DNA from: Saccharospirillaceae bacterium
GTDB taxonomy: Bacteria > Pseudomonadota > Gammaproteobacteria > Pseudomonadales > Oceanobacteraceae
Assembly: GCA_021208685.1 (NCBI GenBank)
Contig: JAJOJJ010000011.1
Location: forward strand, 186,001-250,000
DNA: 64,000 nt
Reading direction: 5' to 3'
The notes under the pieces were generated by a model. It was given only the letters and a program-made list of their open reading frames with translations. It had not been told where the DNA came from and did no database searches. How positions within the stretch are numbered: the first letter of the stretch is position 1; each line of letters starts with the position of its first letter. Shown piece after piece: positions 337 through 5,618 of this stretch. The translations under genes were made by a program, and so were the position numbers.

Positions 337-1614
337 TCAGTTCAGAACTTCGAAAGACAGATCGGCTTTTTCCTGCAAGCGCCGGATAAAACGCTCGTCA
401 AACATGGAGGCTGGCGTCCAGAAACCACCCTCGCGGTCGCATTTTTTTCCATCGCGGTAATAATCGAGTGCCAGACCACTGGCCGCCTGACCGAGTACTT
501 TGGCGGTGGAGCCATAACCCGGATCGCCCTTGCCTTTTACGCAGGTGATGAGGGTTTGGCCATCGTCGCTGCGACCGATAAAGCGGATATCAAAAAAGCC
601 TTCCTGTTGCTGTTTTGGGCTTGGGCCTTCGCCGGGCTTGGGCAGTACGTATTTTTCCAGCAGCCAGCGGCTGGGTTTTAAGGCTGCGCCGAGTAAAAAT
701 GCTCCGATCCCGCCTGTCATCAGCGCGGCCCCGATCCAGCCCTTCGCACCTGAACCGGTTAACACGGCTTCGTTGTAGCAAAAATGGCTGCCATAGGCAT
801 GGTTACGCAGGGCGTTGGTGCGATGAACAATCCGGGTATTAATCGCAGCCATGATAAAGGGGGCGGTATAGCTCAGCAGGTCGGTATCTTTCTCAATTCC
901 GGACATTGTGTTCTGGCGCTGGCTGAAGCCATGACCAGCCGGGCACAGGGAGTAGGGGTTGGCTAACTCTTTGCGCAGAGCCGGATTCGCCATCACTTCT
1001 TTTGTCAGTTCCAGCATGCTGGCGATGGTTCCGCCGGAGATTCCCCCTTTGCCTGCTTTAAGCCGCATATGAACCTGGCTGGCATGATGACCAAACCGCT
1101 TTTGGGCTTCGGCTTGCAGAAAATAAACGCCCATATCGGAGGGAACTGAATCAAATCCGCAGCAATGCACGATGCGCGCACCGGAGGCTTTGGCAGCGGT
1201 TTCGTATTTTTCCAGCATGCGTTTAATCCACTGCGGCTCGCCGGTTAAATCGCAATAATCAGTACCGCTTTCGGCACAGGCTCTGACCAGTGGTTCGCCG
1301 TACAGGGCATAGGGGCCAACGGTGGAAACGATCACTCTGGTTTGTTCACACAGGGCACGAACCTGGTCGTCGCGGCTGGCATCGGCGAGCAGAATCGGCA
1401 GATGTCTGGCGTCGTCTCCCAGTGCCGGCACCAGACTGCCGCGCACCGTTTGCAACTTACTTTCTGAACGGCCGGCAATGGCCCATTTCAGTTCGCCATT
1501 AAGGCCGTAAGTTTCCGCCAGATAGCGGGTGAGAATCTGGCCGACAAAACTGGTGGCGCCAAACACGATCAGATCGAAATGAGGTGTGGTTGCATCAGGG
1601 CTGGTGGCGGTCAT
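337..1614 (-). CDS. Saccharopine dehydrogenase-like NAD(P)-binding oxidoreductase (trans-acting enoyl reductase type)
   Basis: The protein has 425 residues. An N-terminal Rossmann fold carries the dinucleotide motif VFGATSFVG at about residues 17-25, and further Rossmann strands include VIVSTVGPYALYGEPLV and a VHCCGFDSVPSD stretch typical of the saccharopine dehydrogenase / trans-acting enoyl reductase family. Family members act on lipid or polyketide intermediates or are uncharacterised; no lysine-pathway genes are nearby, so a true saccharopine reaction is unlikely. I chose the ATG at 1614 because AGGAG lies just upstream; an in-frame ATG 63 bases earlier lacks a ribosome-binding site. It is divergent from the arsenic operon and shows no functional link to it. 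The family is fairly sure, the substrate is unknown. Confidence 0.75.
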   Translation of the reverse strand: MTATSPDATTPHFDLIVFGATSFVGQILTRYLAETYGLNGELKWAIAGRSESKLQTVRGSLVPALGDDARHLPILLADASRDDQVRALCEQTRVIVSTVGPYALYGEPLVRACAESGTDYCDLTGEPQWIKRMLEKYETAAKASGARIVHCCGFDSVPSDMGVYFLQAEAQKRFGHHASQVHMRLKAGKGGISGGTIASMLELTKEVMANPALRKELANPYSLCPAGHGFSQRQNTMSGIEKDTDLLSYTAPFIMAAINTRIVHRTNALRNHAYGSHFCYNEAVLTGSGAKGWIGAALMTGGIGAFLLGAALKPSRWLLEKYVLPKPGEGPSPKQQQEGFFDIRFIGRSDDGQTLITCVKGKGDPGYGSTAKVLGQAASGLALDYYRDGKKCDREGGFWTPASMFDERFIRRLQEKADLSFEVLN

Positions 1615-1759
1615 AGCTGGCTCCTTGTCATTTTCTTTTGGGCTGCGGCAACGCTTTTTATTATCAGAGGCAGGCAAGTTACCGCTAAAGCCGATGGAAT
1701 GTAAGGGCTGGGAAGACCACAGAGGAGGGCATCCGGGTCAGTGTGGCATGGCAGGGTTG

Positions 1760-1782
1760 TATATATGGATAAACGTATATAT
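1760..1782. promoter_or_regulatory. Candidate ArsR operator and promoter region of the arsenic operon
   Basis: TATATATG (1760-1767) and CGTATATA (1774-1781) form an AT-rich dyad with one mismatch, 30-50 bases upstream of the arsR start. ArsR-type repressors bind such AT-rich dyads over their own promoter. Its position also argues that the arsR start lies downstream of it. This is inferred from position and symmetry only. Confidence 0.5.
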
Positions 1783-1813
1783 GATTTTCCGCATATTTTG
1801 GCTGGTGTGTGCT

Positions 1814-2152
1814 GTGAATCCGCTGACGCTGTTTAAATGTCTGAATGATGAAACCCGGCTGGTGATGGTGTTGCTGTTGCAGCAGTACGGCGAGCTGTGT
1901 GTGTGCGATTTAATGGCTGCACTGGAAGAAAGCCAGCCGAAAATTTCCCGCCATCTGGCACAACTGCGTTCGGCAGAATTACTCAGCAGCGAAAAGCGCG
2001 GTCAGTGGGTGTATTACCGCTTACATCCGCAGTTAGCGCCATGGGCGGTACAGATTATTGCCACCACCCTGACCGCCAATGGCGATTTTATTACGCCTTA
2101 TGCCAACCGTTGCCGTGTACTGATAACCGATAACCCAACGTCCTGTTGCTGA
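1814..2152 (+). CDS. arsR: ArsR-family arsenic-responsive repressor
   Basis: A 112-residue winged-helix repressor of the ars operon. The As(III)-sensing motif ELCVCDL is at residues 27-33, with Cys29 and Cys31, followed by the recognition helix around QPKISRHLAQLRSAELL and a wing containing RGQWVYYRL. Additional cysteines sit at positions 9, 100, 111 and 112. The length is normal for the family with a GTG start at 1814 (MNPLTLFKCLNDETR); an in-frame ATG at 1781 would add 11 residues but falls inside the candidate operator. Binding of arsenite should release the promoter and switch on arsC-acr3-arsH downstream. The stop codon is 29 bases before arsC, so the genes are surely co-transcribed. Start choice is the main uncertainty. 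Confidence 0.9.
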   Translation: MNPLTLFKCLNDETRLVMVLLLQQYGELCVCDLMAALEESQPKISRHLAQLRSAELLSSEKRGQWVYYRLHPQLAPWAVQIIATTLTANGDFITPYANRCRVLITDNPTSCC

Positions 2153-2181
2153 ACAGGCTACGGACATTTTCAGGATATGTT

Positions 2182-2658
2182 ATGAAGCTGTTATTTGTGT
2201 GTACCCATAACCGCTGCCGCAGCATTCTGGCAGAAGCCATTTGCAGGGCAGAGAGTAACGGCGTTTTCGAGGTGCGCAGCGCTGGTAGCCAGCCAGCGGG
2301 TGTGGTGTACCCGGGAACGCTGAATTTTCTGCAGCAACAGGGAATCAGCACTGACGGTTTGCGCAGTCAGAGCTGGGATGAATTCGCCGATTTCGCCCCG
2401 GATGTGGTGATTACCGTGTGTGACAGCGCAGCGGGGGAAGCTTGTCCGCTGTGGATGGGCAACAGCATGAAAGTACACTGGGGGCTGCCTGATCCATCCA
2501 AATTACCTGAAGCGGAACAGAGTGCGGCCTTTTCTCAGGTCGCCGCTACGTTGCGAGAGCGCATTCGTGCCCTCAGTGCTATCGACTGGTCGGATAAGCA
2601 TCCGGCTGATATACAGGCGCTTTTTCAACAACAGAATCAACGGCACAGCGGAGCATAA
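2182..2658 (+). CDS. arsC: Arsenate reductase, low-molecular-weight phosphatase type (thioredoxin-coupled)
   Basis: A 158-residue cytoplasmic enzyme that reduces arsenate to arsenite for export. The phosphatase P-loop CTHNRCR is at residues 7-13 (C-x5-R), the two further redox cysteines are in TVCDSAAGEACP (Cys80 and Cys88), and the catalytic aspartate is in GLPDPS (Asp104). This three-cysteine layout matches the thioredoxin-dependent ArsC of the pI258 type rather than the glutaredoxin type. The ATG at 2182 is preferred to one 36 bases upstream, which overlaps the arsR end; it starts directly at the conserved MKLLFVC strand. The C-terminal extension of about 25 residues beyond the core is slightly long. 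It is the second gene of the ars operon. Confidence 0.92.
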   Translation: MKLLFVCTHNRCRSILAEAICRAESNGVFEVRSAGSQPAGVVYPGTLNFLQQQGISTDGLRSQSWDEFADFAPDVVITVCDSAAGEACPLWMGNSMKVHWGLPDPSKLPEAEQSAAFSQVAATLRERIRALSAIDWSDKHPADIQALFQQQNQRHSGA

Positions 2659-2661
2659 AAC

Positions 2662-3693
2662 ATGGGTATTTTTGAGCGATTTTTAACTCTGTGGGTTGGC
2701 GCCGGTATGGTGCTGGGCGTTGCACTGGGACTGGTGTTGCCGGATTTTTTTGCCGCCATTGCTGCGCTGGAGGTGGCGCGGGTGAATCTGGTGGTGGCGG
2801 TCTTAATCTGGCTGATGATTTATCCGATGATGATTCAGATTGATTTTTCAGCCATCAAAGACGTTGGAAAAAAACCACAGGGGCTGGTGCTGACACTGGT
2901 GATCAACTGGCTGATTAAGCCGTTCAGTATGGCCTTACTTGGCTGGTTATTTTTCAAAGTCTTTTTTGCCGGTCTGGTCGACCCCCAGACCGCCAGTGAA
3001 TACATTGCCGGTATGATTCTGCTGGGTGTGGCACCGTGCACGGCGATGGTGTTTGTCTGGAGTCAGCTGACAAAAGGTGATGCCAATTACACTCTGGTTC
3101 AGGTATCGGTTAACGACCTGATCATGATTTTTGCCTTTGCGCCCATTACCGCTTTTTTATTGGGCGTATCCGATATTCAGGTGCCTTGGGAGACTCTGCT
3201 GATTTCGGTGCTGCTGTATGTGGTATTGCCATTGCTGGCCGGTGTTCTGACACGCAAGTGGTTATCGGCCGATCATCATGCTGAGCGTCTGACCCATTTT
3301 ATGGCAGCGATTAAACCCTTTTCTGTTCTCGGATTAATCAGCACCGTGGTTATTCTGTTTGCTTTGCAGGCACAAACCATTGTCGCCAAACCGTTCGATA
3401 TTCTGTTGATTGCCATTCCACTGACATTGCAGACTTACGGCATCTTTTTTATTGCTTATTTTATTGCGCGCAAAATGCGTCTGGCACACAACATTGCGGC
3501 GCCTGCCTGCATGATCGGCACCAGTAATTTCTTTGAACTGGCTGTGGCCGTGGCCATCTCGCTGTTTGGCCTGCATTCCGGTGCAGCACTGGCGACGGTC
3601 GTAGGCGTGCTGGTAGAAGTGCCGGTCATGTTATCGCTGGTGGCTTTTGCCAATAAAACCCGCGATTGGTTTCCGCCCGTCAACCGCCAATAG
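2662..3693 (+). CDS. acr3: ACR3-family arsenite efflux permease
   Basis: A 343-residue inner-membrane protein with about ten hydrophobic helices, of the BASS/ACR3 fold. The conserved cysteine of ACR3 transporters lies in [13 protein letters not shown] (Cys126), and a helix-breaking stretch resembling the second conserved region is at [14 protein letters not shown]. It exports arsenite using the proton gradient. The start at 2662 follows the arsC stop by 3 bases, so translation is probably coupled. The family length is normal (about 340-350). Choosing ACR3 over the unrelated ArsB carrier rests on the [16 protein letters not shown] opening and the BASS-type motifs. I am sure of this call. Confidence 0.95.
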
Positions 3694-3702
3694 GGTTAAG
3701 CC

Positions 3703-4413
3703 ATGAACGATTTACCGAATCTGATTCCGGAGTTATTTAACGTCCCGGCGGCTGACGAATTATTTTCCCGCGAGGCTGCCCGCCATAAGCCGCGGATTCT
3801 GCTGCTGTACGGCTCACTGCGCAGCCGTTCGTTCAGTCGCCTGGTGGTGGAAGAAAGTGTGCGCATATTGGAGGCTATGGGGGCCGAAACCCGGGTATTT
3901 AATCCCAGTGGTTTACCGCTGCCGGATGACAGTGACGACAGCCACCCCAAAGTGCAGGAATTGCGTGAACGGGTGAACTGGAGTGAAGGCATGGTGTGGT
4001 GCTCGCCGGAGCGCCACGGTGCCATGACCGGTATTATGAAAGCGCAGATCGACTGGATTCCGCTGAATATGGGCGCGGTGCGGCCAACGCAGGGTAAAAC
4101 ACTGGCGGTAATGCAGGTATGCGGTGGCTCGCAATCCTTTAATGCTGTGAATCAAATGCGAATATTAGGCCGCTGGATGCGGATGCTGACGATCCCCAAT
4201 CAATCATCGGTAGCCAAAGCCTGGGCTGAGTTTGATGACAATGATCGTATGAAGCCATCGCCGTATTACGACCGCATTGTCGATGTGCTGGAAGAGCTGC
4301 TGAAATTTACCTTGCTAACCCGCGATCGCAACGATTACCTGCTGGACCGTTATTCCGAGCGTAAAGAAAGCGCAGAAGAGTTAATGAAGCGCGTCAATCA
4401 GCGTTCCATATGA
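3703..4413 (+). CDS. arsH: ArsH, NADPH-dependent FMN oxidoreductase for organoarsenicals
   Basis: A 236-residue flavoprotein. The FMN phosphate-binding loop is [13 protein letters not shown] (about residues 34-46), followed by the family signature [21 protein letters not shown]'s core PERHGAMTG and the [13 protein letters not shown] segment. ArsH oxidises trivalent organoarsenicals to the less toxic pentavalent form and also acts as an FMN or quinone reductase. The N- and C-terminal extensions match ArsH rather than generic NADPH-dependent FMN reductases. It begins 9 bases after acr3 with GGGTTAAGCC upstream, and its last bases overlap the next gene by 4 bases. Length and motifs are normal. 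Confidence 0.95.
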
Positions 4414-4943
4414 GCGCTCAGATGATCGGCCTTGGTGATGACAAGGCCGCTTTTCAGGTATTTATTGCCAACCGTCCGCCGCTGGCGGAATACCAGCAAC
4501 TGAGAACTTTGCAACCTTTGCAGCGCGGTGACATCGCCCGCATTGCCAGCGACACCGGCAATCATTGGCGGAAAATATTTAATGTGTACGCCAAGCTGAT
4601 CTGTGCCTTGCAGCAGGCCGGTATTAACGGGGATAACAATCAGGAAATGTCTGGTTTTACACGCTGGCAGGATCTGCGCGATCAGCAGTTATTGCAGGCG
4701 GACAGTGGGCAGGCATTGTTATTTTCGCCGCCACAGCTGAACCCAGATACCACTAAAATCCGTTTATTACTGGCTAAAAGCTATGCCCAGACTCTGGGGT
4801 TAAGTACCGAGCTGATCTGGCTGGATAATGACTTTGCCCTGCATCCATCATCGGGCATTGTGGTGTGTCCGTATTTTGATTATCGCCAGTTATCGGATAT
4901 TAAAATTCAGCGGTTGGTGGGGTGGCTAAAGCAGAGTGGTTAA
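4410..4943 (+). CDS. Conserved hypothetical protein, fifth gene of the arsenic operon
   Basis: A 177-residue soluble protein with no signal peptide or membrane helix. I do not recognise its function; the segments [14 protein letters not shown] and [14 protein letters not shown] look like conserved family signatures, and I have a weak memory of such proteins as DUF6942, which is unverified. The ATG overlaps the arsH stop (ATGA), so translation is coupled to the resistance genes. One cysteine near residue 151 ([10 protein letters not shown]) and one at 66 are not arranged like an arsenic site. Because it also occurs as an ordinary gene in my memory of related genomes, co-transcription with ars may be a local rearrangement and not a resistance role. 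Confidence 0.8.
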
Positions 4944-4983: not shown

Positions 4984-5187
4984 TCAGACAGACACGGCAA
5001 ACAACAGGCAATAAAAAGGGGAGCTGTTGCCCCCCTCACGCATTGCTTTGTTCAGTTGCCGCTTGGCCTGATGACGTTTGGCCTTAGTGGTGCTTTCGTG
5101 GACACCGCCTTTGCGCATAATGGCTGCACAGGCATGCAGGTTACGCCGTACCGGCTGGCCAGCCAGGGCATTGGATTTTTTGCTCAT
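4984..5187 (-). CDS. Small basic protein whose gene contains an intrinsic terminator before its stop codon (ArfA-like arrangement)
   Basis: A 67-residue protein starting MSKKSNALAGQPVRRN. The ATG at 5187 has GGAG seven bases upstream. Residues 12-50 are rich in Lys, Arg and His (MRKGGVHES, KAKRHQAKRQLNKAMR); the last 11 residues (PFYCLLFAVSV) are abruptly hydrophobic. A GC-rich hairpin followed by five Ts lies within codons 51-58, so most transcripts should end about 25 bases before the TGA at 4986-4984. The layout (basic body, hydrophobic tail, terminator within the frame) is that of E. coli arfA, which makes an active rescue factor only from non-stop mRNA. Sequence similarity to ArfA itself is weak, so the function is a hypothesis. 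Confidence 0.7.
   Translation of the reverse strand: MSKKSNALAGQPVRRNLHACAAIMRKGGVHESTTKAKRHQAKRQLNKAMREGGNSSPFYCLLFAVSV
5013..5035 (-). terminator. Intrinsic terminator inside the small basic protein gene
   Basis: On the minus strand GGGGGGC-AACA-GCTCCCC forms a seven-pair stem (one G-U) directly followed by TTTTTATT. In plus coordinates the stem is 5018-5035 and the T-run 5013-5017. It precedes the stop codon of the gene at 4984-5187. Confidence 0.65.
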
Positions 5188-5350
5188 ATCTGTCTCCGCT
5201 GTGTTATTGATCAGGCCTTTCCTGTTCAGATCTTTAGGCGGCAGTTGCTGCCGCCGCGCTATGATTACATAAAGCGGCAGCCGTTCAATCGTTATCTTGA
5301 TAAACACAGAACTTTCCTGCCAGTTGTTCTGCCTGGGTGGTAAAACTACT

Positions 5351-5618
5351 TAGGGCCTGTTAACACTAATTAAACAGGCCTGTTATTGGCTAAAAGTTTC
5401 TCAGACAAGGCGCTGAGAGTGTGGCCTAACGGGTTAAGCGAACGAACAGCAACGCAGGATGAGGAATTTTTAGCCATAACCCTTCGGGCTGAGGCCAGTT
5501 TTACCCATGAACATCGTCGTTCGTCATTCATTTAACCCGTTAATATCCCTCCTCACTCCTTGTTCTGAGAAAAACTGGCTCTCAGCAGGCCCGATTCACT
5601 TAGTGTTAACAGGCCCTA
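5351..5618. mobile_element. Fold-back MITE-like element, copy 1 (268 bp)
   Basis: Perfect 19-bp terminal inverted repeats begin TAGGGCCTGTTAACACTAA (5351-5369; reverse complement at 5600-5618). The two halves can be aligned as imperfect reverse complements over nearly their whole length, and the exact centre is the small palindrome CCCTTCGGG (5480-5488). TA at both outer edges suggests a TA target duplication. No transposase is encoded. Shared internal blocks (TCAGACAAGGCG, TAACGGGTTA, CCCGAAGGG centre) link it to the element at 8840-9108. Confidence 0.75.

Follow-up and report, generated by a model that had tools for sequence, protein, structure and literature searches.

Results

The P0001 locus and its in-frame hairpin

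The window, by which we mean the whole 64,000-nucleotide stretch of DNA analyzed here from a Saccharospirillaceae bacterium, carries on its minus strand a small open reading frame, P0001, facing a gene of the DUF6942 family. The features at this locus are as follows:

5187–4984, minus strand: P0001, a basic open reading frame of 67 codons, candidate nonstop-regulated rescue factor with 94 distinct family members
5194–5197, minus strand: GGAG, Shine–Dalgarno-like, read from the sequence
5035–5187, minus strand: codons 1–51, conserved basic body and expected functional product (alignments A2 and A4; predicted helix 34–51)
5095–5118, minus strand: core motif MRKGGVHE, residues 24–31 (G27, G28 and H30 the same in all 27 members aligned)
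5016–5037, minus strand: GC-rich hairpin of 9 pairs within the reading frame (fold, terminator scan and ortholog comparison)
5013–5017, minus strand: U run TTTTT of the intrinsic terminator, read from the sequence; the mRNA 3′ end would lie near here, for a product of about 57–59 residues
4987–5013, minus strand: codons 59–67 past the terminator, a hydrophobic tail that varies and would seldom be translated (ortholog tails, stop-distance and hydropathy comparisons)
4984–4986, minus strand: TGA stop codon, read from the sequence and expected to be absent from most P0001 mRNA
4410–4943, plus strand: DUF6942 gene, convergent neighbor (PF22098, E 5.9e-56), of a family of unknown function

P0001 starts with ATG, and GGAG ends 6 nt ahead of it; the choice of start codons in the relatives favored such sites, so this one lends no independent support. 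The stem (GAGGGGGGC-AACA-GCTCCCCTT, 5037–5016) consists of 9 pairs, 6 of them G-C, and together with TTTTT it spans codons 51–59, leaving the TGA 26 nt past the U run. This bears out a preliminary description of the locus, which had pointed to a stem, a T run and a stop codon about 25 bases further on. The hairpin fits only the minus-strand gene because, on the plus strand, the stem is followed by TCACGC, with no U run. The 86 nt around it fold with −31.3 kcal/mol (z −2.79), which 1 of 200 shuffles equaled or bettered. A generic terminator scan of 12 kb returned 19 sites against a chance mean of 15.8 (sd 4.3), so the P0001 sequence alone is not convincing. The hairpin becomes convincing because it is identical in 7 of 7 orthologs and because in-frame hairpins recur in the family above two controls, as described below.

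The AlphaFold2 model of P0001 (alignment A4), which is of modest confidence (mean pLDDT 69.6, pTM 0.35), places an extended N-terminal half before a predicted helix at residues 34–51 that ends where the hairpin starts; pLDDT is 84–87 at residues 31–50. The GGQ catalytic motif was not found in the P0001 sequence.

By eye, the end of the DUF6942 gene adjoins several P0001 orthologs too. Just upstream of P0001, at 5351–5618, lies an element of ~265 bp with 24-nt inverted ends. Counting this copy, the genome holds 44 full or partial matches to the element, which appears to be a non-coding repeat of a mobile or palindromic kind. An arsenic-resistance-like run, also recognized by eye, occupies 1586–4413 and comprises an ArsR-type regulator, a small phosphatase-like protein, an Acr3-like transporter and an ArsH-type FMN reductase, the last being the sole member checked (PF03358).

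The P0001 family

We collected 94 distinct relatives of P0001 from many lineages (drawn from loci L001–L040 and L056–L133, identical copies counted once). Their common core is P-[LI]-[LM]-[RK]-K-G-G-x-H-E-K-[ST], set within the longer text R-N-x-x-A-x-x-P-[LI]-[LM]-[RK]-K-G-G-[VAP]-H-E-K-[ST]-x-K-A-K-R, next to which comes a basic stretch. A19, G27, G28, H30 and R38 are invariant in all 27 members aligned in A4 (A4, and the ArfA set A3 with 14, were built from the ORFs at hand). Eleven loci without a match to the motif pattern (L010, L029, L093, L108, L123, L126 and L129–L133) were left out of the 94 and their hairpins left unscored, some of them being good profile matches (L108, E 2.6e-15; L029, E 1.4e-10). 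Five loci of the phylum sample, L149–L153, were also kept out; L150 and L153 lie outside the class, and L153 is weak.

The initial search gave matches in 10 of 55 genomes including P0001's own, one of which (L010) looks false. With profile A2, the family was found in 37 of 293 genomes of the same order, spread over 21 of 118 genera; with profile A4, it was found in 27 of 369 genomes of the same class and in 6 of 398 genomes of the phylum sample, two of them outside the class. One genome (G570) has two profile matches, L110 and L133. Furthermore, a core alignment search returned 51 loci in named records, from Marinomonas, Reinekea, Hahella, Gynuella, Cellvibrio, Saccharophagus, Ketobacter, Leucothrix, Thiothrix, Cocleimonas, Marinicella, Psychrobacter, Thalassolituus, Candidatus Thiodiazotropha and others.

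The family does not correspond to an established one in the collections searched. Pfam, NCBIfam and PHROGs gave no consistent family for the 27 aligned members, the best-recurring match being a PHROG of unknown function hit by two of them (E 0.0015), and P0001 itself matched no Pfam family up to E 10. Plasmid and phage records, searched with one member as the query, gave no match. No description of the family was found in literature, mostly outside subscription journals, searched with the motif letters and for other rescue factors.

In-frame hairpins recur across the family

Is the hairpin a property of this one gene or of the family? The region between motif and stop codon was searched for stems of at least six pairs with one mismatch allowed, a finder that misses weak stems. 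As controls, we used 316 neighboring long open-frame ends in the same loci, picked mechanically and possibly including shadow frames, and 3760 dinucleotide shuffles. The results show in-frame hairpins of −10 kcal/mol or lower in 65 of the 94 members, compared with 60 of the 316 neighbor ends and 349 of the 3760 shuffles. Hairpins of the U-tract type, defined by five or more T among 8 nt at the stem end and an energy of −12 or lower, were found in 37 of the 94 members, compared with 1 neighbor end and 15 shuffles; at a relaxed −8, the U-tract type still reached only 43 members. After thinning to a single sequence for each 60% single-linkage cluster, 15 of 23 had a hairpin (P 5e-6 versus neighbors) and 7 of 23 had the U-tract type (P 2e-8); for 70% clusters, the counts were 28 and 14 of 45. 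The U-tract hairpins comprise 34 distinct strings between lineages, some near-identical, which indicates that the feature is kept while its letters change. Furthermore, the stem ends a median of 83 nt after GGxH (sd 21, range 62–176) and 0–210 nt before the stop codon (sd 39); the hairpin thus keeps its place relative to the protein body more closely than relative to the stop codon.

Could the hairpin instead serve a neighboring gene? If it were the terminator of the convergent DUF6942 gene, lying inside P0001 by accident, one would expect the closeness that is seen, with the DUF6942 gene ending at 4943, 40 nt from the P0001 stop, and a convergent neighbor in 35 of the 65 hairpin members. However, locus L003 keeps the same hairpin although the long ORF that follows there has the same orientation, and we find this explanation hardly credible. 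A leader peptide with an attenuator controlling a downstream gene would also be a short ORF with a terminator hairpin at its end, and 22 of the 65 hairpin members do have a same-strand long ORF next to them within 600 nt. In the window, on the other hand, the next gene is convergent, which excludes attenuation here by orientation; the same 35 of 65 members have a convergent next ORF, 8 of 65 have none within 600 nt, and no attenuator-typical codon run is seen by eye in P0001. This reading is very improbable.

No hairpin of −10 kcal/mol or lower was found in 29 of the 94 members. Five of these are of the Psychrobacter type (L035–L038 and L098, the last named Psychrobacter), a branch that is apparently unregulated; they have an N-terminal extension, a conserved DWLSE C-terminus and a plain stop. 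A common ending, W-[RE]-[DE]-[DE]-[VL]-x-F-E-[RK]-[ST]-[LV]-K, followed by a plain stop and unlike that of other members, is seen in L070, L086, L110 and L117. Loss of the hairpin through loss of tmRNA was considered and rejected, since 12 of 13 hairpin-less genomes have tmRNA over the cut-off. It was over the cut-off in 16 of all 17 genomes checked, the exception being a 91% complete genome (G317); matches under the cut-off, probably tRNA-like, were not counted. The hairpin-less members may be constitutive versions like arfT, or they may have changed function.

The hairpin is conserved in the Thalassolituus group, and the tail and stop look little selected

In the Thalassolituus group, the 33-nt run of codons containing the stem and the first U's has one and the same sequence in all 7 orthologs. 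This is not explained by the protein sequence: among the seven sequences, 11 of 20 amino-acid-identical non-Met codons vary synonymously in the body (33 codons compared), whereas 0 of 10 do so in the hairpin (P 0.004 versus body). The codons after the hairpin, on the other hand, differ in number and kind. The nonstop gene design proposed in the preliminary description is thus upheld by the ortholog comparison that it had asked for, in which the in-frame hairpin is retained and the last codons change.

Across the 65 hairpin members, the first in-frame stop past the hairpin comes after a median of 11 codons, versus 15 in the other frames (P 0.08). The 48 scorable tails are more hydrophobic than neighboring C-termini (P 4e-10), but their hydropathy is about that of the other two frames (P 0.15), and we rejected the tail as a selected hydrophobic signal. 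The abruptly hydrophobic tail of P0001, which had been remarked on before, is real, yet the same DNA is about as hydrophobic in its other two frames, and so the tail looks like little-selected 3′ flank. Tail and stop codon both look little selected, as would be expected if the mRNA usually ended at the hairpin.

In the ArfA loci examined (L041–L055), 13 of 15 ORFs end in AA, 8 of those in LAA. Such an ending resembles the end of the SsrA tag. Among long open frames, 8 of 488 have an AA ending, compared with 7 of the 65 hairpin members and 1 of the 29 other family members. It may be that the protein made by read-through brings along a protease signal of its own.

Could P0001 be a small protein of another function (for instance, a stress protein that binds RNA or ribosomes), with a terminator that runs into the ORF end as a result of genome compactness? 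Small basic proteins are common, and some hairpin-less members combine a conserved C-terminus with an ordinary stop. However, overlap by compactness sits poorly with U-tract hairpins that are frequent in the family and nearly absent from neighboring ORF ends, and with stems that end up to 210 nt ahead of the stop, followed by codons that look little selected. We regard this alternative as unlikely.

Rescue systems of the host and distribution of ArfA

The host has tmRNA (198.9 bits, over the cut-off) and release factors, and ArfA is absent from it: PF03889 gave 0 matches in the genome, with the E. coli control found. Three proteins have an RF-1 domain, two of them full-size and taken as RF1 and RF2. 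The third is ArfB (NF006718, E 1.5e-58), so another backup exists in the host, which counts against a backup role for P0001.

Among the 293 genomes of the order, ArfA was found over the cut-off in 19 (23 at E 0.01) and the P0001 family in 37, and among the 369 genomes of the class, the numbers were 6 and 27; in neither sample did both occur in one genome. This non-overlap is weak by itself because only ~2.4 shared genomes would be expected in the order sample, by a hand calculation, and both kinds are lineage-clumped. More telling are two splits, both involving putative ArfA: within taxonomic family f35, genus g42 has the P0001 family and g63 has ArfA, and within genus g170 of family f97, genome G504 has the P0001 family and genomes G366 and G608 have ArfA.

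Discussion

A candidate family of backup rescue factors

P0001 has a conserved body, an in-frame hairpin kept despite sequence change and a little-selected tail. We consider it quite probable that the protein is one of an unnamed family, found mainly in Gammaproteobacteria, whose members serve as backup ribosome rescue factors and are produced from their own nonstop mRNA. The two parts of this proposal differ in strength: the nonstop gene design is well supported by the sequence comparisons, and the rescue function is suggested by analogy with known factors. Our best reading, by the same analogy, is that the family would comprise new, widespread, tmRNA-repressed and release-factor-dependent ribosome rescue factors.

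How might such a gene work? Transcription of P0001 would stop at the in-frame hairpin and U run, or the hairpin would be cut, and ribosomes that have read about 58 codons would then arrive at the end of the message with no stop codon encountered. While tmRNA–SmpB is active, the product would be tagged and destroyed; when tmRNA is short, a peptide of 50–58 residues would be released, its basic helix would lie in the empty mRNA channel and a release factor would be recruited. The mRNA 3′ end, the tagging, the ribosome binding and the release-factor recruitment are modeled here on ArfA, BrfA and ArfT. Members without a U-tract hairpin would need cleavage or another route.

It is plausible that further rescue factors exist and that sequence similarity may miss them, as put forward in passages of a review (PMC8012679) and of the BrfA paper (PMC6881298). 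An in-frame hairpin that is kept while its letters change offers a way to find such factors. In the counts given by a survey of 15,259 genomes, arfA was present in 699 of 2,704 Gammaproteobacteria (PMC11633108), which leaves many of them without a known backup. The P0001 family, which is carried by Marinomonas, Cellvibrio, Hahella, Thiothrix, Psychrobacter, Thalassolituus and others, is a candidate backup and may fill that role in some of these. Furthermore, the self-repressing terminator is present in some natural members of the family and absent from others, which makes it possible to test what that regulation is worth.

Comparison with known rescue factors

The closest parallel in gene design is ArfA of E. 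coli and other beta- and gammaproteobacteria, for which the in-frame terminator has been described in published work. Like ArfA, P0001 is a small basic protein in a tmRNA-containing genome, with, at the sequence level, a hairpin before the stop codon of the kind that makes a nonstop mRNA, and with a hydrophobic read-through tail. Among 15 ArfA ORFs, 9 had the whole in-frame hairpin in the last 75 nt, 5 (L041–L045) had one spanning the stop and L051 had none clear in the stretch shown.

The preliminary description had left a choice between a rescue factor of another lineage and a divergent ArfA; the former is favored by our data, and the latter, in which PF03889 has drifted beyond recognition, we consider quite improbable. 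Gene design and size are the same, a P-L-[LF]-[RK] stretch is common to both by eye, the two never occur together in a genome of the two samples (293 and 369), and they replace each other between genera of f35 and between genomes of f97/g170, where the ArfA matches are putative. Against this, hhalign of the 27 members with 14 ArfA sequences gave a probability of 0.2% (E 0.27), other settings (local, global) and orders gave E 0.08–0.95 with a probability below 1%, and the proposed comparison with PF03889 gave no match for any of the 27 up to E 1. A same-order ArfA profile finds E. coli ArfA chains at 6.5e-16, whereas the P0001 family profile finds none up to E 10. There is thus no detectable homology, and the P0001 family has a KGGxHEK core where ArfA has GKGS, which is present in 14 of 14 sequences of set A3 (as KGKGS in 13 of 14) and absent from the 27 members of A4.

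BrfA of Bacillus resembles P0001 in having an intrinsic terminator inside the ORF; in the account of PMC6881298, which places it in Bacillus only, trans-translation keeps BrfA low. The same account treats BrfA as unrelated to ArfA, whereas PMC11633108 calls it an ArfA homolog with 21.5% identity. Our search of the PDB with the P0001 family profile gave the aryl hydrocarbon receptor as the sole match up to E 10, in a copy that may be without a BrfA chain. ArfB (YaeJ) and P0001 both have a basic C-terminal tail that would sit in the mRNA channel; unlike P0001, ArfB is larger in function, as it has its own GGQ domain, and it is encoded elsewhere in the same genome.

Could the P0001 family be related to ArfT? 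ArfT of Francisella tularensis, as described in PMC6299226, has 40 residues, KKGGSTNKK near its C-terminus and no terminator before the stop. It works with RF1 or RF2, and PMC6514570 calls it widely distributed. Its KKGGSTNKK recalls K-K-G-G-x-H-x-K of the P0001 family, with KKGG and a later K in common over the nine published residues compared, and one member (L127) reads LKKGGSHKKSK. Both are small and basic, and some family members, like arfT, are without a terminator, whereas P0001 itself has one before its stop. PF10685 (KGG repeat), which we take to be possibly a broad ArfT-like family, matched nothing in the host genome at E 0.1, in a search that did find 4 control genomes, and none of the 27 members up to E 1. 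Nine residues are too few to prove homology with ArfT; the P0001 family is perhaps the wider ArfT family.

A bolder picture, which we offer tentatively and which could well prove wrong, is that of an unrecognized, class-wide family of rescue factors that recruit release factors, of which Francisella ArfT would be a terminator-less offshoot. In those Gammaproteobacteria where it occurs, the family would take the place of ArfA. Its self-limiting nonstop design would have arisen separately from those of ArfA and BrfA; the terminator would be anchored to the protein body, and the stop codon would be free to drift.
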